DNA of 64,000 nt from Chloroflexota bacterium (GCA_019247515.1 JAFAOS010000333.1:1-64000), one strand, 5' to 3'. Numbered from the stretch's first letter, positions 37,515 to 56,216 are shown. A program made the numbers and translations. Notes: generated by a model from the sequence alone, not told the origin.

Positions 37515-37985
37515 ATGGATCGATCCACCCTGGCGGTCGTCGGCGTCACTCTGGCGCTCATCGCCGCGAGTCTCGCGGCCGCCGTGCTGGTCCGCGCCCG
37601 GGCCACTCCGCCTGATCTCTCGACCCCTGGCGGCGCCGTCCTCGCCTACGCGCAAGCCGAACGGCGCGGCGACCCGACGACTGCCTGGGACTTGCTCGCG
37701 CCCGACGAGCAGGCCCGCCTGGATCGCGACCGCTTCCTCGCGCGAACCGCCGAGGTCGGCGACAACACCTACCTGAGTACCGAGGACGAGCGCATCGACG
37801 CCGACGCGGCCGGCGCGAGCGTCGTCCTGGTGACCACCTATCCCCGCGCCACCCTGTTCGGCGCATCGACCAGCTTCAGCACGCGCGCCACGGTGCGGCT
37901 AGTCCGCGTCAACCAGGAATGGCGAATCAGCGTGCCGCCCGACGCCTACAGTCTGACCCTGTCCGAGAACGTACACCATCCATGA
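37515..37985 (+). CDS. membrane-anchored NTF2-like protein
   Basis: 156 residues. One N-terminal membrane helix (about 6-26, LAVVGVTLALIAASLAAAVLV) and an outer domain. AVLAYAQAERRGDPTTAWDLLAP looks like the start of a DUF4878/NTF2-like cone fold, and EWRISVPPDAY like its end. No active-site residues are recognised. Its TGA overlaps the next start (ATGA). Confidence 0.75.
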   Translation: MDRSTLAVVGVTLALIAASLAAAVLVRARATPPDLSTPGGAVLAYAQAERRGDPTTAWDLLAPDEQARLDRDRFLARTAEVGDNTYLSTEDERIDADAAGASVVLVTTYPRATLFGASTSFSTRATVRLVRVNQEWRISVPPDAYSLTLSENVHHP

Positions 37986-39616
37986 CCACGATTCGACGCA
38001 TCTACGCGTATCTCCTGGCCTTCGCGGGCCTCGGCATGCTCGCGGTTGCCGCCGCCAATCTCGGCAAGCTGTGCATCGACCTCCTGCTGCATGCGCCGAA
38101 TACCGGCACCGCCGAGCTCGTGCGCGAGACGGTCTCGATCAACGCCGCGGCGGCCCTGGTCGGGCTGCCCGTCTGGCTGCTGCACTGGCGCTGGACCGAG
38201 CGCTGGGCGCGCGACAACCGGCAGGAGCGGGCCAGCACCTTGCGGCGCCTGTACCTGTACGTCGTGCTGGCCGCCGCGCTGCTCGTGCTGACGTATTCGC
38301 TGCAAGACGCGCTGTCCGCGGCCATCCAGGCGTTCACGACCCCGTCGCGCGTCGACGACGCCCTCGGCGCGCTGCCGTTCGTCGCGATCGCCGCGCTGGT
38401 GTGGGTCGCCCACTGGCGCATCGCCGCCCGCGATCGAGCCCTGGTGGGCGAGGAAGGCGGCTCCGCGACGCTGCGGCGCTGGTACCTCTACGGAGCGGCG
38501 CTCATCGGATATGTGACGCTGCTGTCGGGCGCCAGCCTGCTGCTCGAATTCCTCTGGCGCGCGCTTACCGCTCCGGGCGACCAGCTCCGGGCCGCCGACG
38601 CGGTTGCCAGCGTCATCGTCGGGCTGGGCGTCTGGCTCGCGCACTGGAGCATCTTGCCGCGACACATCGGCGAGACGGCCCAGCGCGACGACGGCGTGTC
38701 CGTCCTGCGCAGCGTGTACCTGTTCCTCGCCCTGAGCGTGGGCGTGGTCGGCGCGCTGTTTGGCCTGAGCCAGCTCCTGTACTACGCCGTCGCCCGCCTG
38801 CTGGGCGTCTCGAGCCCCGGCGGCGTCAGCGGCAACCTGCTGCAAGCGGCCGCCGCGCCGGCCAGCGTCGCCATCGTGTACGGCGTCGCGTGGGCCTACC
38901 AGCGCCACGCGGTGCGACGCCAGGCTGCCGCCTTCGACGAAGCGCCGCGCCAGGCGGGCGTGCGTCGTCTGTATACCTACGTTGTCGCGCTGATCGGCCT
39001 GGCCACGCTCGCCGTGGGGGCGGCCGGTCTGCTGTGGACGGCCGGCGACCTGCTGGTCAACTCCGCGGCGGCCACGAGCGGTGATGGCTGGCGCGGCAAC
39101 GTCGCGCTGTTCGCCACGCTGGCAGCCGTGGGACTGCCCGTGTGGCTGCTGCACTGGCAGCCGGTTCCAGGCGCGGATGCCGAGGTCCGCTCACTGGCCC
39201 GTCGGCTGTACGTGTACCTGGCCCTGATCGGCGCCATGCTGAGCCTGGTCGGCAGCGCCGCGGCCGCCCTGTACCGCGTGATCAGCCTGATGCTCGGCGT
39301 CGGAGTCGGAGTCGGGGAAAGCGCGAGCGTCAGCGTGCTGACGGACCTGACCCGCGCCCTGGCGGTGGCTATCGTCGCCGGCGCGGTAGCTGGCTACCAC
39401 TGGCGCGTACTGCGCGCCGACGCGCGGCGCGCCACCACCGAGCCAGCGCCTGTCCCGGCCGAGTCGGTCGCCGAGGCGCAGCTCACCGTCCCGGCCGAGT
39501 CCGTCGCCGAGGCGCAGCTCACCGTCCAGATCCGCGCCGCGACGCCCGCGGACCTGGAGCATGCCATCGCCATCCTGCGTTCGCGCGGCGTCGAGGTCGC
39601 CGTCCTCCCGCTCTAA
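37982..39616 (+). CDS. polytopic membrane protein with six DUF5671-like repeats
   Basis: 544 residues. A two-helix unit occurs six times: each opens with an Arg-Arg-x-Tyr-x-Tyr pattern (RRIYAYLLAFAG, RRLYLYVVLAAA, RRWYLYGAALIG, RSVYLFLALSVG, RRLYTYVVALIG, RRLYVYLALIGA) and most close with a VWLLHWR- or VWLAHWS-like helix end. That gives about 12 membrane helices. After the last helix comes a soluble tail with a tandem 12-residue duplication (PAESVAEAQLTV) and a C-terminal RAATPADLEHAIAILRSRGVEVAVL. Function unknown. It overlaps the NTF2-like gene by four bases, so the two probably work together. Confidence 0.85.
   Translation: MTTIRRIYAYLLAFAGLGMLAVAAANLGKLCIDLLLHAPNTGTAELVRETVSINAAAALVGLPVWLLHWRWTERWARDNRQERASTLRRLYLYVVLAAALLVLTYSLQDALSAAIQAFTTPSRVDDALGALPFVAIAALVWVAHWRIAARDRALVGEEGGSATLRRWYLYGAALIGYVTLLSGASLLLEFLWRALTAPGDQLRAADAVASVIVGLGVWLAHWSILPRHIGETAQRDDGVSVLRSVYLFLALSVGVVGALFGLSQLLYYAVARLLGVSSPGGVSGNLLQAAAAPASVAIVYGVAWAYQRHAVRRQAAAFDEAPRQAGVRRLYTYVVALIGLATLAVGAAGLLWTAGDLLVNSAAATSGDGWRGNVALFATLAAVGLPVWLLHWQPVPGADAEVRSLARRLYVYLALIGAMLSLVGSAAAALYRVISLMLGVGVGVGESASVSVLTDLTRALAVAIVAGAVAGYHWRVLRADARRATTEPAPVPAESVAEAQLTVPAESVAEAQLTVQIRAATPADLEHAIAILRSRGVEVAVLPL
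39452..39523 (+). repeat. 36-bp tandem duplication inside the DUF5671 gene
   Basis: The 36-base unit starting GTCCCGGCCGAGTCGGTCGC occurs twice head to tail (39452 and 39488) with one base difference at GTCGGTC/GTCCGTC. It encodes the duplicated VPAESVAEAQLT. The near identity shows a recent duplication that kept the frame. Confidence 0.9.
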
Positions 39617-46059: not shown

Positions 46060-46165
46060 ATCGGCTATTGAAGCCTACCCGCGGCATTCAACCAGGATGT
46101 AACCCGAGCAGCGACGTCAACACCCCAGACCATGCGTTACTTTGAGCCAAGGGGCATCGTCGAAC

Positions 46166-46546
46166 ATGCATTCTTTGGCGAGCGTTCAACACATCGATCC
46201 AACTCCGATGCTTGTCGCACGCGCGTACGACCGCGTCATGCGCATCGCCGACCTGGAGCTGGACCCGGATTGGCACGCGGTGAGCCGCGGCGGCCGCCAG
46301 ATCACGCTGACCCGTATCCAGTTTCAGCTGCTGGCGTTGCTCGCGAAGCATGTCAACCAGGTGGTCGGCTATGACGAGCTGGTGGCCGAAGCCTGGGGTC
46401 ATGCCGACGAGCAGTCCCCGTCGAGCCTGGTCAAATCGCACATCTCGCGCTTGCGCCGCAAGCTCGGCCTGGCGCGGCTCGGCCCGCTGGTAATCAAGGC
46501 CTCCCCCGGCCAGGGCTACATGCTGCGGCTGCGCGCGACGAGCTAG
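46166..46546 (+). CDS. stand-alone OmpR-type winged-helix DNA-binding protein
   Basis: 126 residues from ATG 46166 (TTG 46142 and ATG 46208 are alternatives). The only domain is an OmpR/PhoB output domain: ADLELDPDWHAVSRGGRQITLTRIQFQLLALLAKHVNQVVGYDELVAEAWG, then SSLVKSHISRLRRKLG and SPGQGYMLRL. There is no receiver before it, so activity is not set by phosphorylation of this chain. It stops 5 bases from the convergent signal-peptidase fusion and could regulate the nearby secretion block. Confidence 0.85.
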   Translation: MHSLASVQHIDPTPMLVARAYDRVMRIADLELDPDWHAVSRGGRQITLTRIQFQLLALLAKHVNQVVGYDELVAEAWGHADEQSPSSLVKSHISRLRRKLGLARLGPLVIKASPGQGYMLRLRATS

Positions 46547-46551
46547 CCAGC

Positions 46552-47859
46552 TCAGGGTTGGTCGGGCGCGCCGACACTTGCCGCCCGCGCCGTGTTGACG
46601 CTCGGGCTCCCGGATTGGAGCACGCTCATGTCTGCGAGCGGCCAGTAGCGCACCCACGCGCGCCCCACCAGGTTCTCGACTGGCACGAACCAGCCGAAGT
46701 GCGAATCCAGACTTTCGGGCCGATTGTCCCCCAGCACGAAGTAGCTGTCCGGCGGCACGGTCGCGTACTCGCCGGTTGTCGGAAAGCGGTAGTCAGCGGC
46801 GAACTGTATGTAGGACTCGGCCAGCGGCGCGTCGTTCACAAAGACGTGCCCGTCGTGTACCGCCACCCGGTCGCCCGGCAGACCGATGACGCGCTTGATG
46901 TAATCGACCCCCGGCTCGACTGGCGAATCGAAAATGGCGATGTCGCCGCGCTGGGGTCCGCCAAACATGTAGTCGATCGAACCCTGGTGTGTGGTCGGCA
47001 GCAGGTGTTCCAGCGGAGACCCGTCAACATGCAGGTACGCCAACCGGTTGACGACCAGCACCTGGCCACTGCTGAAGTTTGGCTGCATGCTGATGCCTTC
47101 GACGCGGAAGTTCTCGACTGCCGTCCGTCCGGCGAAAATCAAGACTCCGGCCACGATCGCCGCCTGGACGAGCTCGCCACCGACCTGCAAACCGCGTTCG
47201 GTATTCGCCCGAGCGAAGCGACCGAGCCGCGTTCCCATCGATGGGCCGGCCGGCGGCGCGCCTGTATCTCGAACCTCACCCGGTGGCGCGGTCTGCTCCG
47301 CGGGAATCTCCGCGAGGCCGAGGTCACACAAGCGCAGCAGTGTTGTTACGCAGCACCGGACTCCGTGGCGTCGGACCAGATCCTGGATGCTGCGCTGCCC
47401 GTCGACGTCCAGAAACAGGCGAATCGCCGCGCGCGTCAACGTGATCTCCAGCTCGTCGCGTAGCTCGGGTTGGACCACCAGGCGCGGCACCGCCGTTGGA
47501 GCCCGCAAGCGGCTCATCCAACCCTGCAGCGGGCTGGTGCTGAGTCGCTGGATGCCTCCGACAAAGTCCCAGTCGGCGTCAATTTCGGCCGTGAGTGTTG
47601 CGGAGCCATCGAAGAATTCGAAATTCCCGCGTTCGCTCACGCCGCTGACGATCAGCTCCAACGCGGACAGACCGTGCTCGTCGTCGATGCCCGCCGCGAC
47701 GATCCGGCCGTCCTGTAGTGACAACTGGCCCACCCAACGCTCGTTGGAGATCAACAGGTCGCCGGTCTTGCCGAGGTCAGCCAGAAATTGCGCCAGCGGC
47801 GCGAAATGAATGCTGGAGAACGAGCCGGTCAGGTCCGCCATACCTGGGGGACGCGTCAT
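46552..47859 (-). CDS. lepB: DUF4388-signal peptidase I fusion protein
   Basis: 435 residues from ATG 47859. N-terminal DUF4388-like domain (about 5-105: LTGSFSSIHFAPLAQFLADLGKTGDLLIS, GQLSLQDGRIVAAG, GNFEFFDG), a middle segment with LFLDVDGQRSIQDLVRRHGV (DUF4388/PATAN-associated type), a membrane helix (about 228-245, LVQAAIVAGVLIFAG), then the S26 peptidase: catalytic Ser in VEGISMQPN, Lys in DYIKRVIGLPGD, and box E in FVLGDNRPESLDS. It should cleave signal peptides outside the membrane, with a cytoplasmic domain of the kind found in signalling proteins. The neighbouring divergent operon encodes several exported proteins. Confidence 0.92.
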   Translation of the reverse strand: MTRPPGMADLTGSFSSIHFAPLAQFLADLGKTGDLLISNERWVGQLSLQDGRIVAAGIDDEHGLSALELIVSGVSERGNFEFFDGSATLTAEIDADWDFVGGIQRLSTSPLQGWMSRLRAPTAVPRLVVQPELRDELEITLTRAAIRLFLDVDGQRSIQDLVRRHGVRCCVTTLLRLCDLGLAEIPAEQTAPPGEVRDTGAPPAGPSMGTRLGRFARANTERGLQVGGELVQAAIVAGVLIFAGRTAVENFRVEGISMQPNFSSGQVLVVNRLAYLHVDGSPLEHLLPTTHQGSIDYMFGGPQRGDIAIFDSPVEPGVDYIKRVIGLPGDRVAVHDGHVFVNDAPLAESYIQFAADYRFPTTGEYATVPPDSYFVLGDNRPESLDSHFGWFVPVENLVGRAWVRYWPLADMSVLQSGSPSVNTARAASVGAPDQP

Positions 47860-48429
47860 GAGCGCCGACTCACTATAAACCGCGTGCACTGCGACTGAGT
47901 GACCCAGGGCGGATACTCAACGGGACTGCAACATTGTGCACTTCCCCCGACGGGTACGGAGTCGTATGGTGGGCAGGGACTATCCGACCCACAACCCGCA
48001 CCAACAAGCCACAGGCTCCTGACCCCCGAGCGCTGTGCGAAGAAGCCTGCACGCTATCTCGCACTTGCGAGAGAGCCCCTGCGTTGTCAACTCGAGGAGG
48101 TCGGTTCGGCACACTTGTGCTAATTCCGCATTTGCGTTCTGCCACGCACAATCGCACGGCCGGAGGGTGGCGGCCAGCCTGGCGCCACCCTCAGGTTGTG
48201 GCCGCGCCGGACAGCTCCATCCGCGGACCGCCCACTCGAGCAGGTTGAAGGAGTGAACGTAGAGCGCGCCCGCGAGAGGGGGCCCCTCTGGGCCTCACCG
48301 AAAGAAGCCCCCAATCGCCAACGTCCCAGGGTCCAGGGCCTGATGGGCTCAGTCAGTGGTGTCGCGCGGTAGCCCGACGCTTAGCCGCTGCTTTTTCCCC
48401 GGAATCCCGGAACAGGAGCATTTTGAGCA
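47860..48429. other. 570-base divergent intergenic region with four hairpins
   Basis: This separates the signal-peptidase fusion from the secreted-protein operon and must carry promoters for both; a TATAGT word lies just upstream of ATG 47859 on the minus strand. Hairpins: TCTCGCA-CT-TGCGAGA (48057-48072), GCACA-CT-TGTGC (48109-48120), GAGGGTGGCG with CGCCACCCTC (48163-48192) and AGAGGGG-G-CCCCTCT (48275-48289). The first two share a GCA-CT-TGC-like tip. No gene and no known riboswitch is recognised. Confidence 0.6.
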
Positions 48430-49929
48430 ATGACGCTACTTAGAGGCAAGATTGCCCAGCGGTCAGCGGCCGCGCTGTCGGCCGCCGCGCTCGTCGGGGC
48501 AATTGCCTTGCCGAACACAGTCATGGGTCAGTCGATCACGCTGAATCGCTGCCCCGCCGACGGCTTCGGCCGCTCTACCTCGGTGTGCACCACGCAGATC
48601 GGGGTACCGGTCAACGCGCCGGACGCATCGCAGAGCGGCACGGTCGACACCTCGGCCAGCACGTCTCAGAGCAACAAGGTCAGCCAGGACGCCAGCAACC
48701 GCAACAGCGCCGACGCGCTCGACGTCAATGCCCAGTCGCAGCACTCGACGCAGGTCGGCGGCGACCAGAGCAACCGTCAAAGCAACGATCAGGACGTCAA
48801 GTCATCGGCCGACACCGCGGCTTACGGCGCCCCGACGATCGCTGTTGGTCCATCGGCCAAGATTTCCCTCGGCCTGGTCCAGAGCTCCGACGCGAGCGCC
48901 AATGGTAACGCGACGGTCGACTCGTCCACCGGTCAGGCTGGCGGCGACGCCAACGCGATCGGCAACGTGAACGCCAGCGGTGGTAACGCCGGCGCCGGTT
49001 CGTCGGCGGATGGCGGCGACGGTAACGGCAACACGCACGCAGCGTCGCTGGCAGCTCAGCTGGGCAGCGGCAACGGCCTCGCTTCCAGCGACTCCACGGC
49101 CGGTGATGGCGGCAACGCCCGCACCAGCGGTGGCAACGCGAGTTCCGAAGGCGGCGACGGCGGTGACGGTGGCCGTGCCAGTAATGGCGCCAACGGCAAC
49201 GGTGCGACCGCTGCTGATCTCGCCGCGAGTCTGTCCGCCGCCATCTCGGGCAAGTCCAAGGACGGTGCGAGTTCGGCGAGCGATGCGACCAGCGGCGGTG
49301 CCAGCACCTCCGCCGACAGCGGTGCCGCCAAAGGCGGTGCTGGCGGGGCTGGTGGTGATTCGAGCGCAACCTCCGGTGGCAACACTTCCACCGGCGGCGA
49401 TGGTGGTGACTCGAGCGCTTCTACCCCAGGTGGAACGGGCCACGCGAGCAACTCCACTGGCACCCTCAACGCCAACGCCTCCGGCACCAACGGCAACGCG
49501 CTGTCCAGCGCAGATGGCGGCACCTCCAAAGGTGGCGACAATGCTGGCAACGTCGCAGCTGGCGGCAACGGGACCTCGGGCATGAACTCGAGCACCGCGG
49601 CAGTGGTGGGCGGCACGTCGCTGAACAGCTCGACGTTCAGCTTCTCGCAGACGGCGGGCGACACGACCGCCACTGGCGGGGCTGTGACGAACAACGGTTC
49701 CGCGACATCCAGTCCGTCGACGTCGGCGACCAACACTGGTTCGAACGCCAGCACGCAGTCGCAGACCCCGACGCAGACCGGCGGCACGGGTCCCCTGAAC
49801 CAGACCCAGAACGCGCAGTCCGGGCAGACGTCCAACCCGTCCAACGCGGCCGCTACCAAGGCGAGCGGCAAGCTGTCTCAGACCGCGACCAACAACGGAA
49901 GCGCGAAGGACAGCGCGACATCCAAGTAA
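48430..49929 (+). CDS. secreted Gly/Ser/Asn/Ala-rich low-complexity protein
   Basis: 499 residues. N-terminal signal peptide (about 1-34: MTLLRGKIAQRSAAALSAAALV and a following ALPNTVMG, then Q). A short Cys-containing part (RCPADGFGRSTSVC) follows, then about 430 residues of drifting motifs rich in G, S, A, N, T and D (for example GGDGGDGGRASNGANGN, STGQAGGDANAIGN). The C-terminus is Gln/Thr/Asn-rich. No catalytic motif or LPxTG. Composition resembles surface fibre, sheath or amyloid-like proteins, but no family is recognised. First gene of the block ending at 56051. Confidence 0.85.
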   Translation: MTLLRGKIAQRSAAALSAAALVGAIALPNTVMGQSITLNRCPADGFGRSTSVCTTQIGVPVNAPDASQSGTVDTSASTSQSNKVSQDASNRNSADALDVNAQSQHSTQVGGDQSNRQSNDQDVKSSADTAAYGAPTIAVGPSAKISLGLVQSSDASANGNATVDSSTGQAGGDANAIGNVNASGGNAGAGSSADGGDGNGNTHAASLAAQLGSGNGLASSDSTAGDGGNARTSGGNASSEGGDGGDGGRASNGANGNGATAADLAASLSAAISGKSKDGASSASDATSGGASTSADSGAAKGGAGGAGGDSSATSGGNTSTGGDGGDSSASTPGGTGHASNSTGTLNANASGTNGNALSSADGGTSKGGDNAGNVAAGGNGTSGMNSSTAAVVGGTSLNSSTFSFSQTAGDTTATGGAVTNNGSATSSPSTSATNTGSNASTQSQTPTQTGGTGPLNQTQNAQSGQTSNPSNAAATKASGKLSQTATNNGSAKDSATSK

Positions 49930-50063
49930 TTCTTCTCGTAGGGCTACCGAATACACCGGGAGTCCGAGGTCGGCCTCATCGAGGCAAGGGAGGCCGACCT
50001 CGCTTCCCACTCCGTCGGCAGCCTCCCACTTCCGACACTCCAGAAAGGAACCGCACTTCGAGC

Positions 50064-50621
50064 ATGGCACCGTTCAACAACGCTCGCCTGGCGTGGAGCG
50101 TCGCCTGTGCGTCGCTTGCCCTGTGGGCGACGAGTGTCCCCCTGACCTGGGGACAGATTTCGGCGGATGCCAGCCGCATGCTCGATGTCACCCCCACCAC
50201 CACGTTCGAAGACGCTCAGCAGACCGATACCACGGCCACGCCGTGCCCGCCGGCGCCCGCCGCACCCGCGGTGGCGGCGCTGCCACCCTCGATCGCCAGC
50301 CTGCTGCCGACGCCACTTCCGGCCGCGTCCGCGCCACCTTCCGCGAGTAGTGGCGCAAGTCAGGGGTCGTTCCACCTGTGCGGCCCGGACGCCTCGGCCG
50401 CGCAAGCCATCGAGCAACTGATCGGCGGCCGCAGCTTCAGCGCCAGTCTGAACACCACGGCCGACGGCTGCGCGGATCTGACGGTGCAGCCAACGTCGTC
50501 GGTTGCCAGCGGCAGCGCGACCTCGCAGCTCAGCGTATCGCTGGGCTCCGGTCAGAACCTTCAAATCCAGATCACGTCGCAGAACGGCGCGACGCACGTC
50601 AGCATCGGGTCGGGGACATAA
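50064..50621 (+). CDS. small secreted protein with Pro/Ala linker and Cys pair
   Basis: 185 residues with an AAAGGAA about 12 bases before ATG 50064. Signal peptide (about 1-31, ending SVPLTWGQ), a Pro/Ala/Thr-rich spacer (about 55-100), then a compact domain with two Cys about 30 residues apart (FHLCGPDAS, DGCADLTV) and a Ser/Gln-rich last strand (SQLSVSLGSGQNLQIQITSQNG). No family recognised. It is followed after 10 bases by the giant protein gene, so they are certainly co-transcribed. Confidence 0.82.
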   Translation: MAPFNNARLAWSVACASLALWATSVPLTWGQISADASRMLDVTPTTTFEDAQQTDTTATPCPPAPAAPAVAALPPSIASLLPTPLPAASAPPSASSGASQGSFHLCGPDASAAQAIEQLIGGRSFSASLNTTADGCADLTVQPTSSVASGSATSQLSVSLGSGQNLQIQITSQNGATHVSIGSGT

Positions 50622-50631
50622 AGGAGGACTG

Positions 50632-53600
50632 ATGCGAGCTCGACTTCATTCGTTGCGGCACGTGAAGACCGCGCGTCAGGCCGCGTACACCGCGCTGGCG
50701 ACGCTGGTTGCCATCCTGGTGGTCTTTGCACCGGTTGAAGCGTTGCCCAACGCGTTTTCGGCCTCGCCGAACCAGGCGAGCACATCCGCGCCGGCGAGTG
50801 GCAAGTCGAGCTCATCGTCCTCCTCCTCCTCCTCCTCCTCGTCGTCCTCATCGTCGACGTCGTCCTCGAAGTCGGCGAAGTCAGACTCGAGCGCGGCCTC
50901 GAAGTCCTCATCGTCGACGACCTCGAGTTCGAACACGGGCAACCAGTCACCGCCGTCCAGAACGAACGAGTCCAGACCGTCGGCAAGCGGGTCGACGACT
51001 TCGACCGGCGCGTCTTCGACGACCACGACGGCAAAGTCGTCACCACCTCCGGCCGCGACGCACGCGGCGGCGACGCAAGCGGCCACGACCACGAAAGCTT
51101 CGGCCACGAGTACCACGGCGACCACTGGCAAGACTCCGGTCGCGGCGGCGTCGCCGGTCAAAACCACCACGACCAGCGCCAAGGCGTCACCCGCGACGGC
51201 TTCGAAATCCGCGACGACGTCGACAACGTCGTCTTCTGCGACCACGACTACTGCCGTCGCGGCGACGACCTCGTCGAGCACAGACACCAAATTGGCTGCC
51301 AGCGGCGAATCCGCGCCGACGTCGCCGTCGGCCTCCGCCAGTACACCACAGGCAAGTCCTTCGGCCGCGTCGACGACCACCTCCAGCGCGCAGGCCAGTC
51401 CATCGTCGACCAGCACCTCCGGCGCGCAGGGCAGTCAATCCTCGTCGACCAGCACCGCCGGCGCGCAGGTCACCTCGAGTCCCTCCACAAACACCGACAG
51501 CGCCGTGGCCAGTCCCAGCAGCACGCCAGTGGTTCCCGCGACCTCCACCTCGGTCACCGCCAGCAGCACGACCACCAAGACGGCCGCCGCTACGTCGGTG
51601 ACGACCGACAGTACGGCCACAACCGTGGCGACCGGTTCCGCTGTCGCAACCGCCACCGCCGGCGACTCCGCGGCTACCGGTGACACGAACGCTGGTTCAG
51701 ATCCGGCGCCGACTCCACCAGTCACGCCTGTCGCGACGCCATCCACATCTCCCGCGTCGTCCGTTGGTGCCGCCGCGGGAGTCAACGCTCCAGACGTCCC
51801 GGCCGCGACGCCATCCGCATCGCCCGCGTCGTCCGTTGGTGCCGCCGCGCCAGCTGTCCAGGCGGCGCCTTCGGCAACCGCCCAGGCGGCCGCGGCCGCC
51901 GATCCACCCGCCTCGCCTGCGCCCGCCGCGACGGCCCAGGCGGCTGCACCCGCCGCGCCCGCTGTCAACGCCGGCAGCGGCGACGCCACCGGCCTCGCCG
52001 GCCAGGTCGACACCACCGACTCCAACGTCCAGATCGGCGCGGTCGCGGCGGCGGGCGGCGCCGGTGGCTTGACGGTCGCCAACTCGCACTCCACCACGAT
52101 CGGCGATGCGAGCGCCGCCAGCTCCAGCTCTGGCGTTGCCGTCGCCCTGGCGCCCACGCCGGATGCCGGCGCCACGCTCACCGGCGTCACAACCGCCCAA
52201 TCTGGGGCAGCATCCGCGGTCGGCGCGGCCGTCGCCAACGACGTCCGCAACACCGATGCGGCGGCGGTCCTCGTCCAGGGCGCGAACCAGGCCCCGGTCA
52301 ACGTCGTCTCCAATGCCAACGTGGCGATCCAGGACACCGGCGCCGCGGGCGTAACCTCTGGCGCCGCCTGGGCGGTCGCCGCCGGCGCCGCGGGCGCGCC
52401 CAGCAACGTCTCGACCCCGGTGACCACCGGCGCGGCGCCGACCAGCGCCGCCGAATCAGCCACCGGCATCCAGGCCAACAACTCGCTAAGCAACGCGACT
52501 TCGTCAACGGTCAATGTCGCGGGTGGACCTGGCAACACCGCCCCCATCAACGTCACGCCCGCGCAGTCCGTCTCGAACACCACCGGTGGCTACGCGACGA
52601 CGATCTCCGGGGCAGCGTGCGCGGGAGCCACGTGCGCTTCGCCGGCCGGCGCCACGGCAAGTGGCGCCACCCAGGCCTCCAGCGGCGCGTCGCAAGCGCA
52701 GGGCGTCGTCGCGCAGAACAACGTCCAGACCAACGCGAATGTCGCGGTCGACGTCGGCGGGCAAAACTTTGCGCCGATCACCGTCGTTGTCAACTCCATC
52801 ACCCGTATCTTCAACTGGGGCACGGCTTCGGCCACCTCCGGCGATGCCGTTGCCAATGGGTCTTCCGCCGGCGGCAGCACTGCCAGCGCGGTCGGTGCGG
52901 CAAGCGGCTCCTCCGAGGCTACTGGCGCCGAGGTGGCCAACTCGGTCGCGTTGCACTCGTCGGCGGCCGTCCACGTCGCCGGCGACAACTACAGTCCGAT
53001 CAACGTCCTCTTGAACCTGGCCGCGAGCATCGTCAACTGGGGCGTCGCTACGGCAACCTCCGGTGACGCGCAGTCGACCGGATCGGGCGGTGGCGCCGCC
53101 ACCAGCGGCGCGGCAAGCGCAACTGGTCTGCGGGCGGTCAACCTGGTCAGTCTCTGGGCGGACGCGTCGGTCGACATCGACGGCAACAATTACGCGCCGA
53201 TCTTCATTCAGGTCCTGTTCAACACCAACGTCGCGAATGTGGGCTACGCCGGCGCCAGCACCGGTAATGTCGCCACCTCGAGCGGCGCCACGAGCAATGG
53301 TTCGACGCCGCAATCCACCTCGGGGAGCTCGTCCGTCGGCTCCTCCTCATCCGGCGGGGCCGCGAGCCGGGCACAGGGCGGCGCCGCGGTCGCCATTAGC
53401 AACTCGGTCAATGTCGCCGCGGTCTCCAATCAGATGTCGAACGCCAATGGCGGCGGTTCCGTGGCTACCACGGCTGTGGCCGAGATGCTGACCAACTTGC
53501 CCCCGGGCCCGTGGAATCCATTCGTGCAGCAAAACCTGCCGGATACCGCCGCGCCGCCAGTGGTCGCCGGTATGAGCTCCAGCTCGGGTAATTCAGTCGC

Positions 53601-54636
53601 CGTCGGCCTTCAATCCAACATCGCGGCCATGAATGGCCAGATCGCGGCATGCCGTGATCCAGGCGTGAGCTGCACGGCCGTCAACTCCAACACCACGTCC
53701 ATCAGCATGAGCGACCTCGCGCATAATCCAGCGACCAACAGCAGCGGCGCCGCGCGCGGCTCCGGCAACCAGGACGGCGGCGGGTCTGACCCGGGCTTCG
53801 GACCGGGCGGCACCTCGTCCAGCAGCGGCTTCAGCGGCGTCAACGCGACGCCGACGCCAAAAACGACGTCTCAAACCAGCAACTCGGGTGGCGACGACGC
53901 GGCGTTCGATCAAGGCCCGGATGCATCCTCCGATGACGGTGGCGGTGGTGGCAACGGTGGCGCGGGCGGCGCCGCACGCCGCTTCTTTGGAGCCAATGCC
54001 ATCGTCCGCGGCCCGGGCGTGAATGGCCAGGTCGTGCTCGTCGATCTGTTCGACCAGTGGCCCGGTCGGCGCCTGCCGCCAATGCCCAACCCGCTCGACA
54101 GCCGCGTGTCCTCATCCACGATCAGCGCCACGCTGGCCGGTTTCCCCGGAGTTGACGAGCTGCCGCTGCCCATGCCGGGCGCGGCCGACGCCTCGGGGCC
54201 GGCGCCAGCGCGGGCGGCAGTCGCCTCCGGTTCGGGCCTGCGCCGACCACTCGGTCCAGCCTCACTGGACCTGCAGGCGGCTGATGGCGACGACCTGTAT
54301 CCGCCGCTCGCGCTGGTGGATGTCGATCTCTGGTCGCGCTGGCCGCAAGCCGAATTCATGCCGATGCCGATGCAGGCGCTGCCCGCGGCGGCTGCCGCGG
54401 TGGACGCTTCGCCGGCGGTGGTCGTTCCGGATGCGGCCACTCCGCTGCCCCCCGACAATGGCGCGCTGCCGATGCAGCTCGACCTTGCCGCGCTGCTTTC
54501 GATGTTGACCATTACGCTGCGCGTCGCCATGCGGCACGGTCAGAGCCTGCTGGCGGTCGTGCGCTCGTGGTTCAACCAGCGACGCCGCGCGCAGATCCTG
54601 CTCCGCCTGGCGTCTGGCATGTTGCGACTGTGGTGA
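50632..54636 (+). CDS. giant secreted repeat protein with Ser/Thr stalk and C-terminal hydrophobic tail
   Basis: 1334 residues. A perfect AAGGAGG lies four bases before ATG 50632. Parts: signal peptide (about 1-44, TALATLVAILVVFAPVEA); a Ser-run (from about residue 60, coded by TCC repeats) and a Ser/Thr/Ala region to about 480; five repeats of 70-80 residues (about 535-890) with a core such as VDVGGQNFAPITVVVNSI, VHVAGDNYSPINVLLNL, VDIDGNNYAPIFIQVLF; a Gly/Ser/Asp-rich stretch; two copies of a VDLFDQWP/VDLWSRWP motif followed by PMP; and a C-terminal hydrophobic-basic tail (LAALLSMLTITLRVAM, then WFNQRRRAQILLRL). The repeats look like beta-rich surface modules. No family with known function is recognised. 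Confidence 0.9.
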   Translation: MRARLHSLRHVKTARQAAYTALATLVAILVVFAPVEALPNAFSASPNQASTSAPASGKSSSSSSSSSSSSSSSSSTSSSKSAKSDSSAASKSSSSTTSSSNTGNQSPPSRTNESRPSASGSTTSTGASSTTTTAKSSPPPAATHAAATQAATTTKASATSTTATTGKTPVAAASPVKTTTTSAKASPATASKSATTSTTSSSATTTTAVAATTSSSTDTKLAASGESAPTSPSASASTPQASPSAASTTTSSAQASPSSTSTSGAQGSQSSSTSTAGAQVTSSPSTNTDSAVASPSSTPVVPATSTSVTASSTTTKTAAATSVTTDSTATTVATGSAVATATAGDSAATGDTNAGSDPAPTPPVTPVATPSTSPASSVGAAAGVNAPDVPAATPSASPASSVGAAAPAVQAAPSATAQAAAAADPPASPAPAATAQAAAPAAPAVNAGSGDATGLAGQVDTTDSNVQIGAVAAAGGAGGLTVANSHSTTIGDASAASSSSGVAVALAPTPDAGATLTGVTTAQSGAASAVGAAVANDVRNTDAAAVLVQGANQAPVNVVSNANVAIQDTGAAGVTSGAAWAVAAGAAGAPSNVSTPVTTGAAPTSAAESATGIQANNSLSNATSSTVNVAGGPGNTAPINVTPAQSVSNTTGGYATTISGAACAGATCASPAGATASGATQASSGASQAQGVVAQNNVQTNANVAVDVGGQNFAPITVVVNSITRIFNWGTASATSGDAVANGSSAGGSTASAVGAASGSSEATGAEVANSVALHSSAAVHVAGDNYSPINVLLNLAASIVNWGVATATSGDAQSTGSGGGAATSGAASATGLRAVNLVSLWADASVDIDGNNYAPIFIQVLFNTNVANVGYAGASTGNVATSSGATSNGSTPQSTSGSSSVGSSSSGGAASRAQGGAAVAISNSVNVAAVSNQMSNANGGGSVATTAVAEMLTNLPPGPWNPFVQQNLPDTAAPPVVAGMSSSSGNSVAVGLQSNIAAMNGQIAACRDPGVSCTAVNSNTTSISMSDLAHNPATNSSGAARGSGNQDGGGSDPGFGPGGTSSSSGFSGVNATPTPKTTSQTSNSGGDDAAFDQGPDASSDDGGGGGNGGAGGAARRFFGANAIVRGPGVNGQVVLVDLFDQWPGRRLPPMPNPLDSRVSSSTISATLAGFPGVDELPLPMPGAADASGPAPARAAVASGSGLRRPLGPASLDLQAADGDDLYPPLALVDVDLWSRWPQAEFMPMPMQALPAAAAAVDASPAVVVPDAATPLPPDNGALPMQLDLAALLSMLTITLRVAMRHGQSLLAVVRSWFNQRRRAQILLRLASGMLRLW
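50813..50841 (+). repeat. TCC trinucleotide microsatellite in the giant protein gene
   Basis: TCATCGTCC is followed by an uninterrupted run of TCC triplets to about 50840, then GTCGTCC variants. It encodes a Ser tract. The unit is three bases long, so slippage would change length but not frame. Confidence 0.85.
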
Positions 54637-54658
54637 ACTGTGGAGGTCCCGTTATCAA

Positions 54659-55621
54659 ATGCTGTTGAAACTTCGAGCCCATCACTTGACCTGGCCGCTC
54701 CGATTCACGAGCGCGCTGTTCGCGGCCCTGCTGGTGGTTGCGCCGCTTGCCGTGAGTCCCGCGGCCGCGCAGAGCCAGCCAGCACCGGCGCAGAGCCAAT
54801 CGGCGCCAACGCCCGCCGACCGCATCGACCTGGTCGGTCTGGTCACCCAGCAGCCCAAGCCCGACAGTCCACCCAACGACGTCCAGTTCCAGGCGACGGT
54901 GAACTACCACCTGGAATCAGCCGCCAGCGGGACCGTCTTGCTGTTCCTGTTCGAAAATACCGCCAGCCAGTCAACCCAGGACTCCTCCAATGCCATTCCG
55001 ATCCAGCGCGGCAACGGACAACTGGTGCTGGACATCGACTACACGCTGAGTCAGGATGTCAAGACCCTGACCCTCGTGGCGGCAGTGTTCAAGCCCCAGC
55101 AGAAGCTTGCGGCCTGGGTCTCGACCAATCCGATCGACATGGCGCCCTGGCCCGGCCGCGTCTTCTTCGAAAAAGCGATGACCGATCGATTGGCCAACGA
55201 TTACTCCGCCGCCGACCAGGAGCTCACCCTGGCCATCCAGGAGTCACCGGACACGGGCAACTACTATTACTGGCGCGGCGACACGCGCATCCGCCTGCAG
55301 GACTACTCCAACGCCCTTGCTGACTTCAACAAGTCGATCGAGCTGATGCCGAAGGATCGCCCGAGCCGCGTTGGCCGCGGCATTGCCGAGCTGTGGCTGG
55401 ATAATCCGCAAGCCGCCGTGGACGACCTGACCACCGCCATCCAGGCCGTCAGCACGCCTGACCGCGTCTCTGCCTGGGCGTTTCGCGCGCGCGGTCTGGC
55501 CTACGCCAGCCTGGGTCAGTCGCAGAGTGCCGTCTCCGATTACAACCAGTACCTGACCCTGACCCCCGATGCCCCCGACCGCGACCAGGTCACCGGTTGG
55601 ATCGCCAACCTGAGCGGCTGA
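54659..55621 (+). CDS. exported TPR-repeat protein
   Basis: 320 residues, 22 bases after the giant gene. Signal peptide (about 1-38, ending SPAAAQS), a Gln/Pro/Ala spacer, a beta-rich domain (about 50-160) and at least three tetratricopeptide repeats (about 170-310: FFEKAMTDRLANDYSAADQELTLAIQ, YYYWRGDTRIRLQDYSNALADFNKSIEL, and AFRARGLAYASLGQSQSAVSDYNQYL). Such repeats bind partner proteins; it may help assemble the secreted proteins encoded upstream. Confidence 0.88.
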   Translation: MLLKLRAHHLTWPLRFTSALFAALLVVAPLAVSPAAAQSQPAPAQSQSAPTPADRIDLVGLVTQQPKPDSPPNDVQFQATVNYHLESAASGTVLLFLFENTASQSTQDSSNAIPIQRGNGQLVLDIDYTLSQDVKTLTLVAAVFKPQQKLAAWVSTNPIDMAPWPGRVFFEKAMTDRLANDYSAADQELTLAIQESPDTGNYYYWRGDTRIRLQDYSNALADFNKSIELMPKDRPSRVGRGIAELWLDNPQAAVDDLTTAIQAVSTPDRVSAWAFRARGLAYASLGQSQSAVSDYNQYLTLTPDAPDRDQVTGWIANLSG

Positions 55622-55688
55622 GCCACACCGTTTCCGTTCTTGCGCGCTTCCAAGTGAGCTCCAAGGTCTGCGTCCGACACTGCTGAGG

Positions 55689-56051
55689 ATGACCCTGGAC
55701 TCGAATAACAACATCCTGGTAGCCAGCGACGACGCGGCACTGGTCAAGGCAATCAGCGGCTCTCTACACGCCAACGGCTTCCGCGTGTGCACCGCAAACC
55801 AGCACGCCAATCACCCACCCCGCCTGATCGTGCTCGACACGGAAGCCTCCTCCGAAACTCGCGCCCGCGTGCTGAACCCCTTCGGCTGCGACCCCGATGG
55901 CACCACCCCGCCCATCGTCGCCCTCTCCCCCCGCGCCGCCCTGAAAGAAACCGCCGCCCAGAAAGGCGTCTGGGTCTGCCTGGCCAAACCTATCGAGCTG
56001 GACTCGCTGCTGAGCGCCGTGGAGCGCATCAGCGACTACACCTCCGCCTGA
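55689..56051 (+). CDS. receiver-like protein, partly degenerate
   Basis: 120 residues. The CheY-like pattern is recognisable: ILVASDDAALVKAI (acidic pair replaced by SDD), LIVLDTEASS (possible phosphoacceptor Asp), VALSPRAA (Ser) and CLAKPIELD (Lys before Pro). The sequence between the strands is shorter and less regular than usual, so phosphorylation is uncertain. It lies 67 bases after the TPR gene on the same strand and could be the block's regulator. Confidence 0.75.
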   Translation: MTLDSNNNILVASDDAALVKAISGSLHANGFRVCTANQHANHPPRLIVLDTEASSETRARVLNPFGCDPDGTTPPIVALSPRAALKETAAQKGVWVCLAKPIELDSLLSAVERISDYTSA

Positions 56052-56142: not shown

Positions 56143-56216
56143 GGGCGCGTAGCTCAGTTGGTTAGAGCACTTGCATCACACGCAAGGGGTCCGGGGTTCG
56201 AGTCCCTGCGCGCCCA
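56143..56216 (+). tRNA. tRNA-Val (anticodon CAC)
   Basis: Full cloverleaf. Acceptor GGGCGCG (56143-56149) pairs with CGCGCCC (56209-56215), discriminator A56216. D-stem GCTC/GAGC. Anticodon stem CTTGC/GCAAG with loop ATCACAC, so anticodon CAC at 56177-56179. T-arm CGGGG-TTCGAGT-CCCTG. CCA is not encoded (CCT follows), so it is added after transcription. Confidence 0.97.

Follow-up and report, generated by a model that had tools for sequence, protein, structure and literature searches.

Cleavage of the signal peptide is usually regarded as a constitutive step of protein export. Among described exported surface proteins, the chaplins and rodlins of Streptomyces offer a point of comparison (PMC3079736, PMC5314377), and among signalling proteins, the PATAN response regulators of cyanobacteria have been linked to type IV pili, to which they pass signals (PMC7690835). 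Here, we describe a locus from a little-known soil bacterium of the Chloroflexota (8.3-Mb genome, 579 contigs) in which four genes for exported proteins, referred to as P2, P3, REP and TPR, stand beside a gene for a signal peptidase I (SPase I) fused to a DUF4388-type domain. The window, by which we mean the whole stretch of DNA analysed, is 64,000 nucleotides long. All of the open reading frames that a first-pass annotation had noted are present at their positions, and recomputation gave the same coordinates, the same spacings (134, 10, 22 and 67 bases along the series P2, P3, REP, TPR and receiver-like gene) and the same 570-base gap between the fusion gene and P2 (47860-48429, by the original start of the fusion). 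The features are collected in Table 1.

Table 1. Features of the locus, in window coordinates.
Feature	Position	Strand	Basis or remark
DUF4388 (PATAN-like), linker domain, one transmembrane segment and signal peptidase I (S26)	46552..47841	-	Pfam, congener alignment
Divergent intergenic region, presumably holding both promoters	47842..48429	.	also divergent in G002
P2, secreted protein of 499 aa rich in Gly/Ser/Ala/Asn, with signal peptide	48430..49929	+	first in operon, 8/8 genomes
P3, small exported protein with Cys pair	50064..50621	+	homologue alignment; profile search
REP, 1334 aa; signal peptide, Ser/Ala/Thr/Pro-rich region, repeats, hydrophobic C-terminal stretch(es), basic tail	50632..54636	+	
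Five REP repeat units, ~75 residues each	52192..53307	+	residues 521-589, 604-676, 681-753, 756-822, 823-892
TPR protein; signal peptide, ~110-residue beta-type domain (predicted), TPR repeats	54659..55621	+	Pfam TPR_9 6.5e-16
Receiver-like protein, 120 aa, probably outside the module	55689..56051	+	Response_reg 20 bits vs cut-off 30.2 (Pfam)

We searched 400 Chloroflexota genomes, an even and non-exhaustive sample of the phylum made up of fragmented assemblies that are probably MAGs, with separate profiles for P3, the TPR protein and the repeat core of REP, which was queried in place of the whole protein. Each profile matched the same eight genomes and no others. The module of exported proteins proposed in the annotation is thus borne out by three independent probes. 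The order P2, P3, REP, TPR is kept in all eight genomes, which represent at least four families (f1, f7, f8, f56) and two classes; in one of them (G007) the P3 gene was recovered in a separate follow-up reading. A class search yielded TPR orthologues in five other genomes of the class, and two operon genomes outside the class (G230 and G328) have the same gene order, with the TPR gene directly following REP in G328. Pairwise identity between genomes is only 34-65% for the TPR protein and 42-58% for the REP repeats, indicating long co-inheritance. A search for the REP repeat core in plasmids found none. Since the sampled genomes are related and are not independent events, the agreement in eight of eight is strong yet does not translate into a simple probability. 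High-GC reading frames rich in Ser, Ala and Gly arise easily, and their products score too high in BLAST; the genes could accordingly be unrelated low-complexity exported genes that became neighbours by chance. This is extremely improbable, however, given the perfect co-occurrence of three profiles, an order kept in eight genomes, and the conserved parts of P3 and the TPR protein, which are not low-complexity. Collectively, these data define a real, undescribed and co-inherited exported operon in the Chloroflexota, and it is nearly certain that 48430-55621 is a conserved four-gene operon of exported proteins.

All four proteins have N-terminal signal-like segments and REP contains repeats, in agreement with the first description of the locus. 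For P2, P3 and REP, neither Pfam nor NCBIfam gave a match above cut-off. Because P2 is low-complexity, the homology of its counterparts rests more on gene position, an N-terminal motif and a C-terminal segment than on BLAST: a similar ITLxR follows the signal peptide in most copies, and the homologues share a similar C-terminal AGGxxxN segment. Two P2 genes stand in tandem in G230 (L073 6855-9752), which suggests duplication of the secreted subunit. In the alignment of P3 homologues, the N-terminal hydrophobic segment has an invariant Ser, Leu and Trp (S..LW), suggesting that it is a kept anchor and not a cleaved peptide, and the C-terminal domain has invariant Cys106 and Cys136 (LCG ... DGCA). 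A PDB sequence search with P3 returned one insignificant match (0.26), outside the conserved domain. The conserved domain of about 110 residues in the TPR protein is probably of beta type, judging from its sequence.

In REP, about 385 residues, at about 45-430, form a low-complexity region in which 79% are Ser, Ala, Thr or Pro. The five repeat units follow the pattern A.V.V.G.N.API.V......I.N.G.A.A.SGDA.A.G and were matched by the repeat profile with i-Evalues of 1.9e-9, 2e-4, 2.4e-26, 1.7e-25 and 9.1e-23 for units 1-5; in shuffled copies of REP the profile reported none. REP also carries VDLW..WP....PPMP segments, whose conserved form is LW..(W/L)P....PPMP. The C-terminal hydrophobic stretch with arginines found in REP homologues is clear in most of them and weaker in the window protein (G000). 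Single-sequence AlphaFold prediction modelled each repeat as two long strands, with low confidence (pLDDT 42.8 and 56.4). A Foldseek search with this low-confidence model found no fold match (best E 1.5), and a PDB sequence search with the repeats found no match.

We then considered the signal peptidase fusion. Its peptidase domain scores far above the cut-offs (Peptidase_S26, 1.5e-39, 136.1 bits against a Pfam cut-off of 22.9; TIGR02227, 130.7 bits against an NCBIfam cut-off of 47), and its DUF4388 match is marginal (1.3e-5, 25.7 bits against a Pfam cut-off of 25, with the start of the profile aligned). Both domains of the fusion read from the sequence at first pass are therefore above cut-off, DUF4388 only just; in the fusion of a congener, DUF4388 scores 21.2 bits, under the same Pfam cut-off. 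The congener fusion is alignable over its full length, with 39% identity in the first 190 residues (the DUF4388 part) and 58% in S26, and the two fusions are 42-47% identical. The congener's start MAELSGSL aligns with MADLTGSF in the window protein and accordingly, of the limits 46552-47859 first given for the fusion, the end at 46552 stands and the start is more likely 47841. The catalytic Ser motif GISMQP and the catalytic Lys motif YIKRVIGLPGD (DYIKRVIGLPGD) are conserved in the congener fusion and in the paralogue C473, and a single hydrophobic segment (residues 240-258) lies just before the peptidase domain. Matches spanning both domains were found in two genomes only in the class search and the 400-genome phylum search; the latter retained matches at 1e-48 or better and may have missed weaker fusions. 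Both fusion genomes retain other SPase I genes. A tree of SPases places the two fusions as a pair, moderately supported (91/88), among the SPases of the genus itself, and the fusion thus looks like a recent duplicate. Two other candidate fusion loci, L001 and L002, were rejected because the SPase that they carry is a housekeeping one, with fumarase and tgt genes adjoining. Judging from matching loci, the congener G001 seems to be MAG CF_72, as its SPase locus and L002 share their contig coordinates, and the congener G002 seems to be MAG CP_BM_RX_R9_6, as its C327 SPase and the L001 protein have identical beginnings. In the literature library searched, no paper contained both terms for such a pairing of signal peptidase I with a signalling-type domain.

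The fusion gene divergently adjoins the operon in both operon-bearing congeners, the host and G002, and the third congener has neither. In G002 the contig with the fusion and P2 and the contig running from P2 to TPR share an exact 147-base overlap inside P2, which equals the k-mer size in the contig name (k147), indicating that the contigs adjoin and the fusion lies beside the operon. The annotation had proposed co-occurrence of the fusion and the secreted genes as its check, and within this genus they do co-occur. Six of the eight operon genomes lack the fusion, and all six have ordinary SPase I genes elsewhere, indicating that the module does not need the fusion; the annotation's view of the fusion as a defining part is not upheld. 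The fusion is a later, genus-level addition to the operon locus. Since the linked cases number only two and come from one genus, the adjacency of the fusion could be due to chance, and a duplicate SPase that landed next to the operon is a serious rival reading. The operon would then be a real surface module and the fusion an unrelated neighbour, a genus-level duplicate SPase for many exported proteins that shares only the divergent promoter region. The six genomes without a fusion and the place of the fusion within the genus's own SPase clade favour this explanation, whereas a divergent adjacency kept between fusions of such low identity and the joint absence of fusion and operon from the third congener argue against it; we regard it as possible but lean the other way.

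The gap between the two transcription units had been called hairpin-rich. Two inverted repeats are indeed present (48053-48076 and 48155-48200), but the description is weakly borne out (fold z = -2.1, with 2 of 100 shuffles equally good). Searches of the gap found no sigma-70 consensus promoter and no Rfam match. Shine-Dalgarno-like runs (AGGAG, AAAGGA, AAAGGAGG and GGAGG) precede the four operon genes. On the far side of the fusion, a small winged-helix (Trans_reg_C) protein is encoded at 46142-46546 on the plus strand, ending convergently 6 bases away from where the fusion gene ends; no gene of this type was recognised downstream of the congener's fusion. Farther away in the window, positions 37919-39616 encode a 565-aa protein with four DUF5671 matches.

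Downstream of TPR, the receiver-like gene had been counted as a member of the module. Its Response_reg score is below threshold (20 against 30.2 bits) and no such gene lies beside the operon in the other genomes; it is probably no part of the module. A tRNA gene follows it directly (56143-56216), possibly at the boundary of the locus.

Other operon loci have neighbours of their own. In G230, which belongs to a different class of the phylum and lacks the fusion, a 561-aa DUF4388 protein without a peptidase is encoded in the orientation of the operon and about 3 kb upstream of it (L073 2047-3732), adjoining a histidyl-tRNA-synthetase-like gene; this 5.1-Mb genome has three DUF4388 genes in total, and the placement may be chance. 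An exported protein with a zinc-protease-like motif (HGLGHCLGLGHN) and a weak DUF2927 match directly follows the TPR gene in the same genome (L073 15506-16717). In G328 the operon adjoins Tad pilus genes, which encode an Flp/Fap pilin, RcpC/CpaB and a CpaE-like ATPase (L074 10-3035). Downstream of the operon in G002 come a TadE-like gene and the genes for a glycosyltransferase that weakly matches GH26 and for a second, exported protein that is GH26-like (L051 3817-9131). Because type IV pili are targets of DUF4388/PATAN proteins elsewhere, we considered whether the module serves a Tad pilus as a pilus-associated adhesin or sheath. The Tad genes near these two operons and the pilus-linked PATAN regulators of cyanobacteria (PMC7690835) would fit such a role, but no Tad genes were identified next to the window's operon or at loci other than those of G328 and G002, and we judge it very unlikely.

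Taken together, it is close to certain that the four proteins work together outside the membrane, and our best guess is that the module builds a membrane-anchored, mucin-like surface polymer, layer or adhesin. We infer the surface location, the polymer or adhesin role and the roles of the partners as follows. REP would be exported and anchored in the cytoplasmic membrane through the hydrophobic segment at its C-terminus, with the beta-rich repeats extending outward to a long, mucin-like outer part rich in Ser, Thr and Pro. P2 would be secreted and pack with or around REP. P3, probably membrane-held and likely to form a disulphide, could be an assembly or anchoring factor, and the TPR protein an extracytoplasmic scaffold or chaperone. 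As to the fibre, sheath or spore coat suggested by the annotation, no specific structure has direct support. This includes a functional-amyloid or hydrophobic coat of the chaplin/rodlin or curli kind, with P2 as the secreted subunit and REP as the anchored nucleator. Such a coat would account for the pairing of a secreted with an anchored low-complexity protein, the beta-rich repeats of the low-confidence models and the conserved Cys pair of P3, yet P2 lacks the REP repeat and no chaplin, curlin or other coat family was matched: Pfam searches for a chaplin domain or curlin repeat returned nothing in P2, P3 and REP up to E = 1, or in six REP homologues up to 0.1. The amyloid reading is, in our estimate, unlikely. 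A copolymer of P2 and REP built on a shared repeat, on the plan of curli, was rejected because the REP repeat profile matches no P2 protein.

For the fusion, we suggest that in one genus a signal peptidase I arose by duplication, acquired a DUF4388/PATAN-type domain on its cytoplasmic side and came to lie divergent to the operon, where it would most likely provide extra, possibly signal-responsive, cleavage of the exported subunits. To the whole picture, in which the operon builds an extracytoplasmic surface structure and the fusion most likely supplies extra cleavage, we assign an even chance. We take DUF4388 and PATAN to be the same domain. Since PATAN proteins of cyanobacteria signal to type IV pili (PMC7690835), a regulated SPase is possible; the presence of DUF4388 is the sole basis of the regulation claimed for the pathway in the annotation. 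The stronger form of what we infer for the SPase, that the PATAN-type domain sets its activity or placement from inside the cell and that it is dedicated to the surface-polymer subunits of this operon, with surface assembly regulated as signal peptides are cleaved, is in our view doubtful.

These findings define a module of four genes for exported proteins, inherited together in uncultivated Chloroflexota, a group with poorly known cell surfaces; three of the module's proteins lie outside Pfam and NCBIfam. The joining of a signalling-type domain, on the cytoplasmic side, to a signal peptidase I is a rare domain fusion, tied to the operon in one genus only. If the fusion is regulatory, protein export would be controlled at signal-peptide cleavage.

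Compared with described systems, the operon resembles the chaplins and rodlins of Streptomyces in general plan, in which a soil bacterium exports both anchored and secreted surface proteins. Its proteins differ from chaplins in lacking a chaplin-domain match and in their sizes and repeats. Long chaplins are anchored by sortase, whereas REP carries a hydrophobic segment at its C-terminus. The operon TPR protein is like other exported TPR proteins in its signal peptide and in the TPR repeats of its C-terminal half; unlike them it has its own conserved N-terminal domain of about 110 residues, found only with the operon in our sample. The fusion shares an N-terminal DUF4388 match with DUF4388/PATAN-type signalling proteins; in contrast to PATAN response regulators it joins the domain, here weakly matched, to a membrane protease and not to a receiver. 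As in signal peptidase I (family S26, TIGR02227), it has a full S26 domain, the catalytic Ser and Lys motifs and one transmembrane segment, whereas it differs from the ordinary enzyme in being an extra copy, in addition to other SPase I genes, and in carrying about 225 extra N-terminal residues, which include DUF4388 and lie on the membrane segment's cytoplasmic side.
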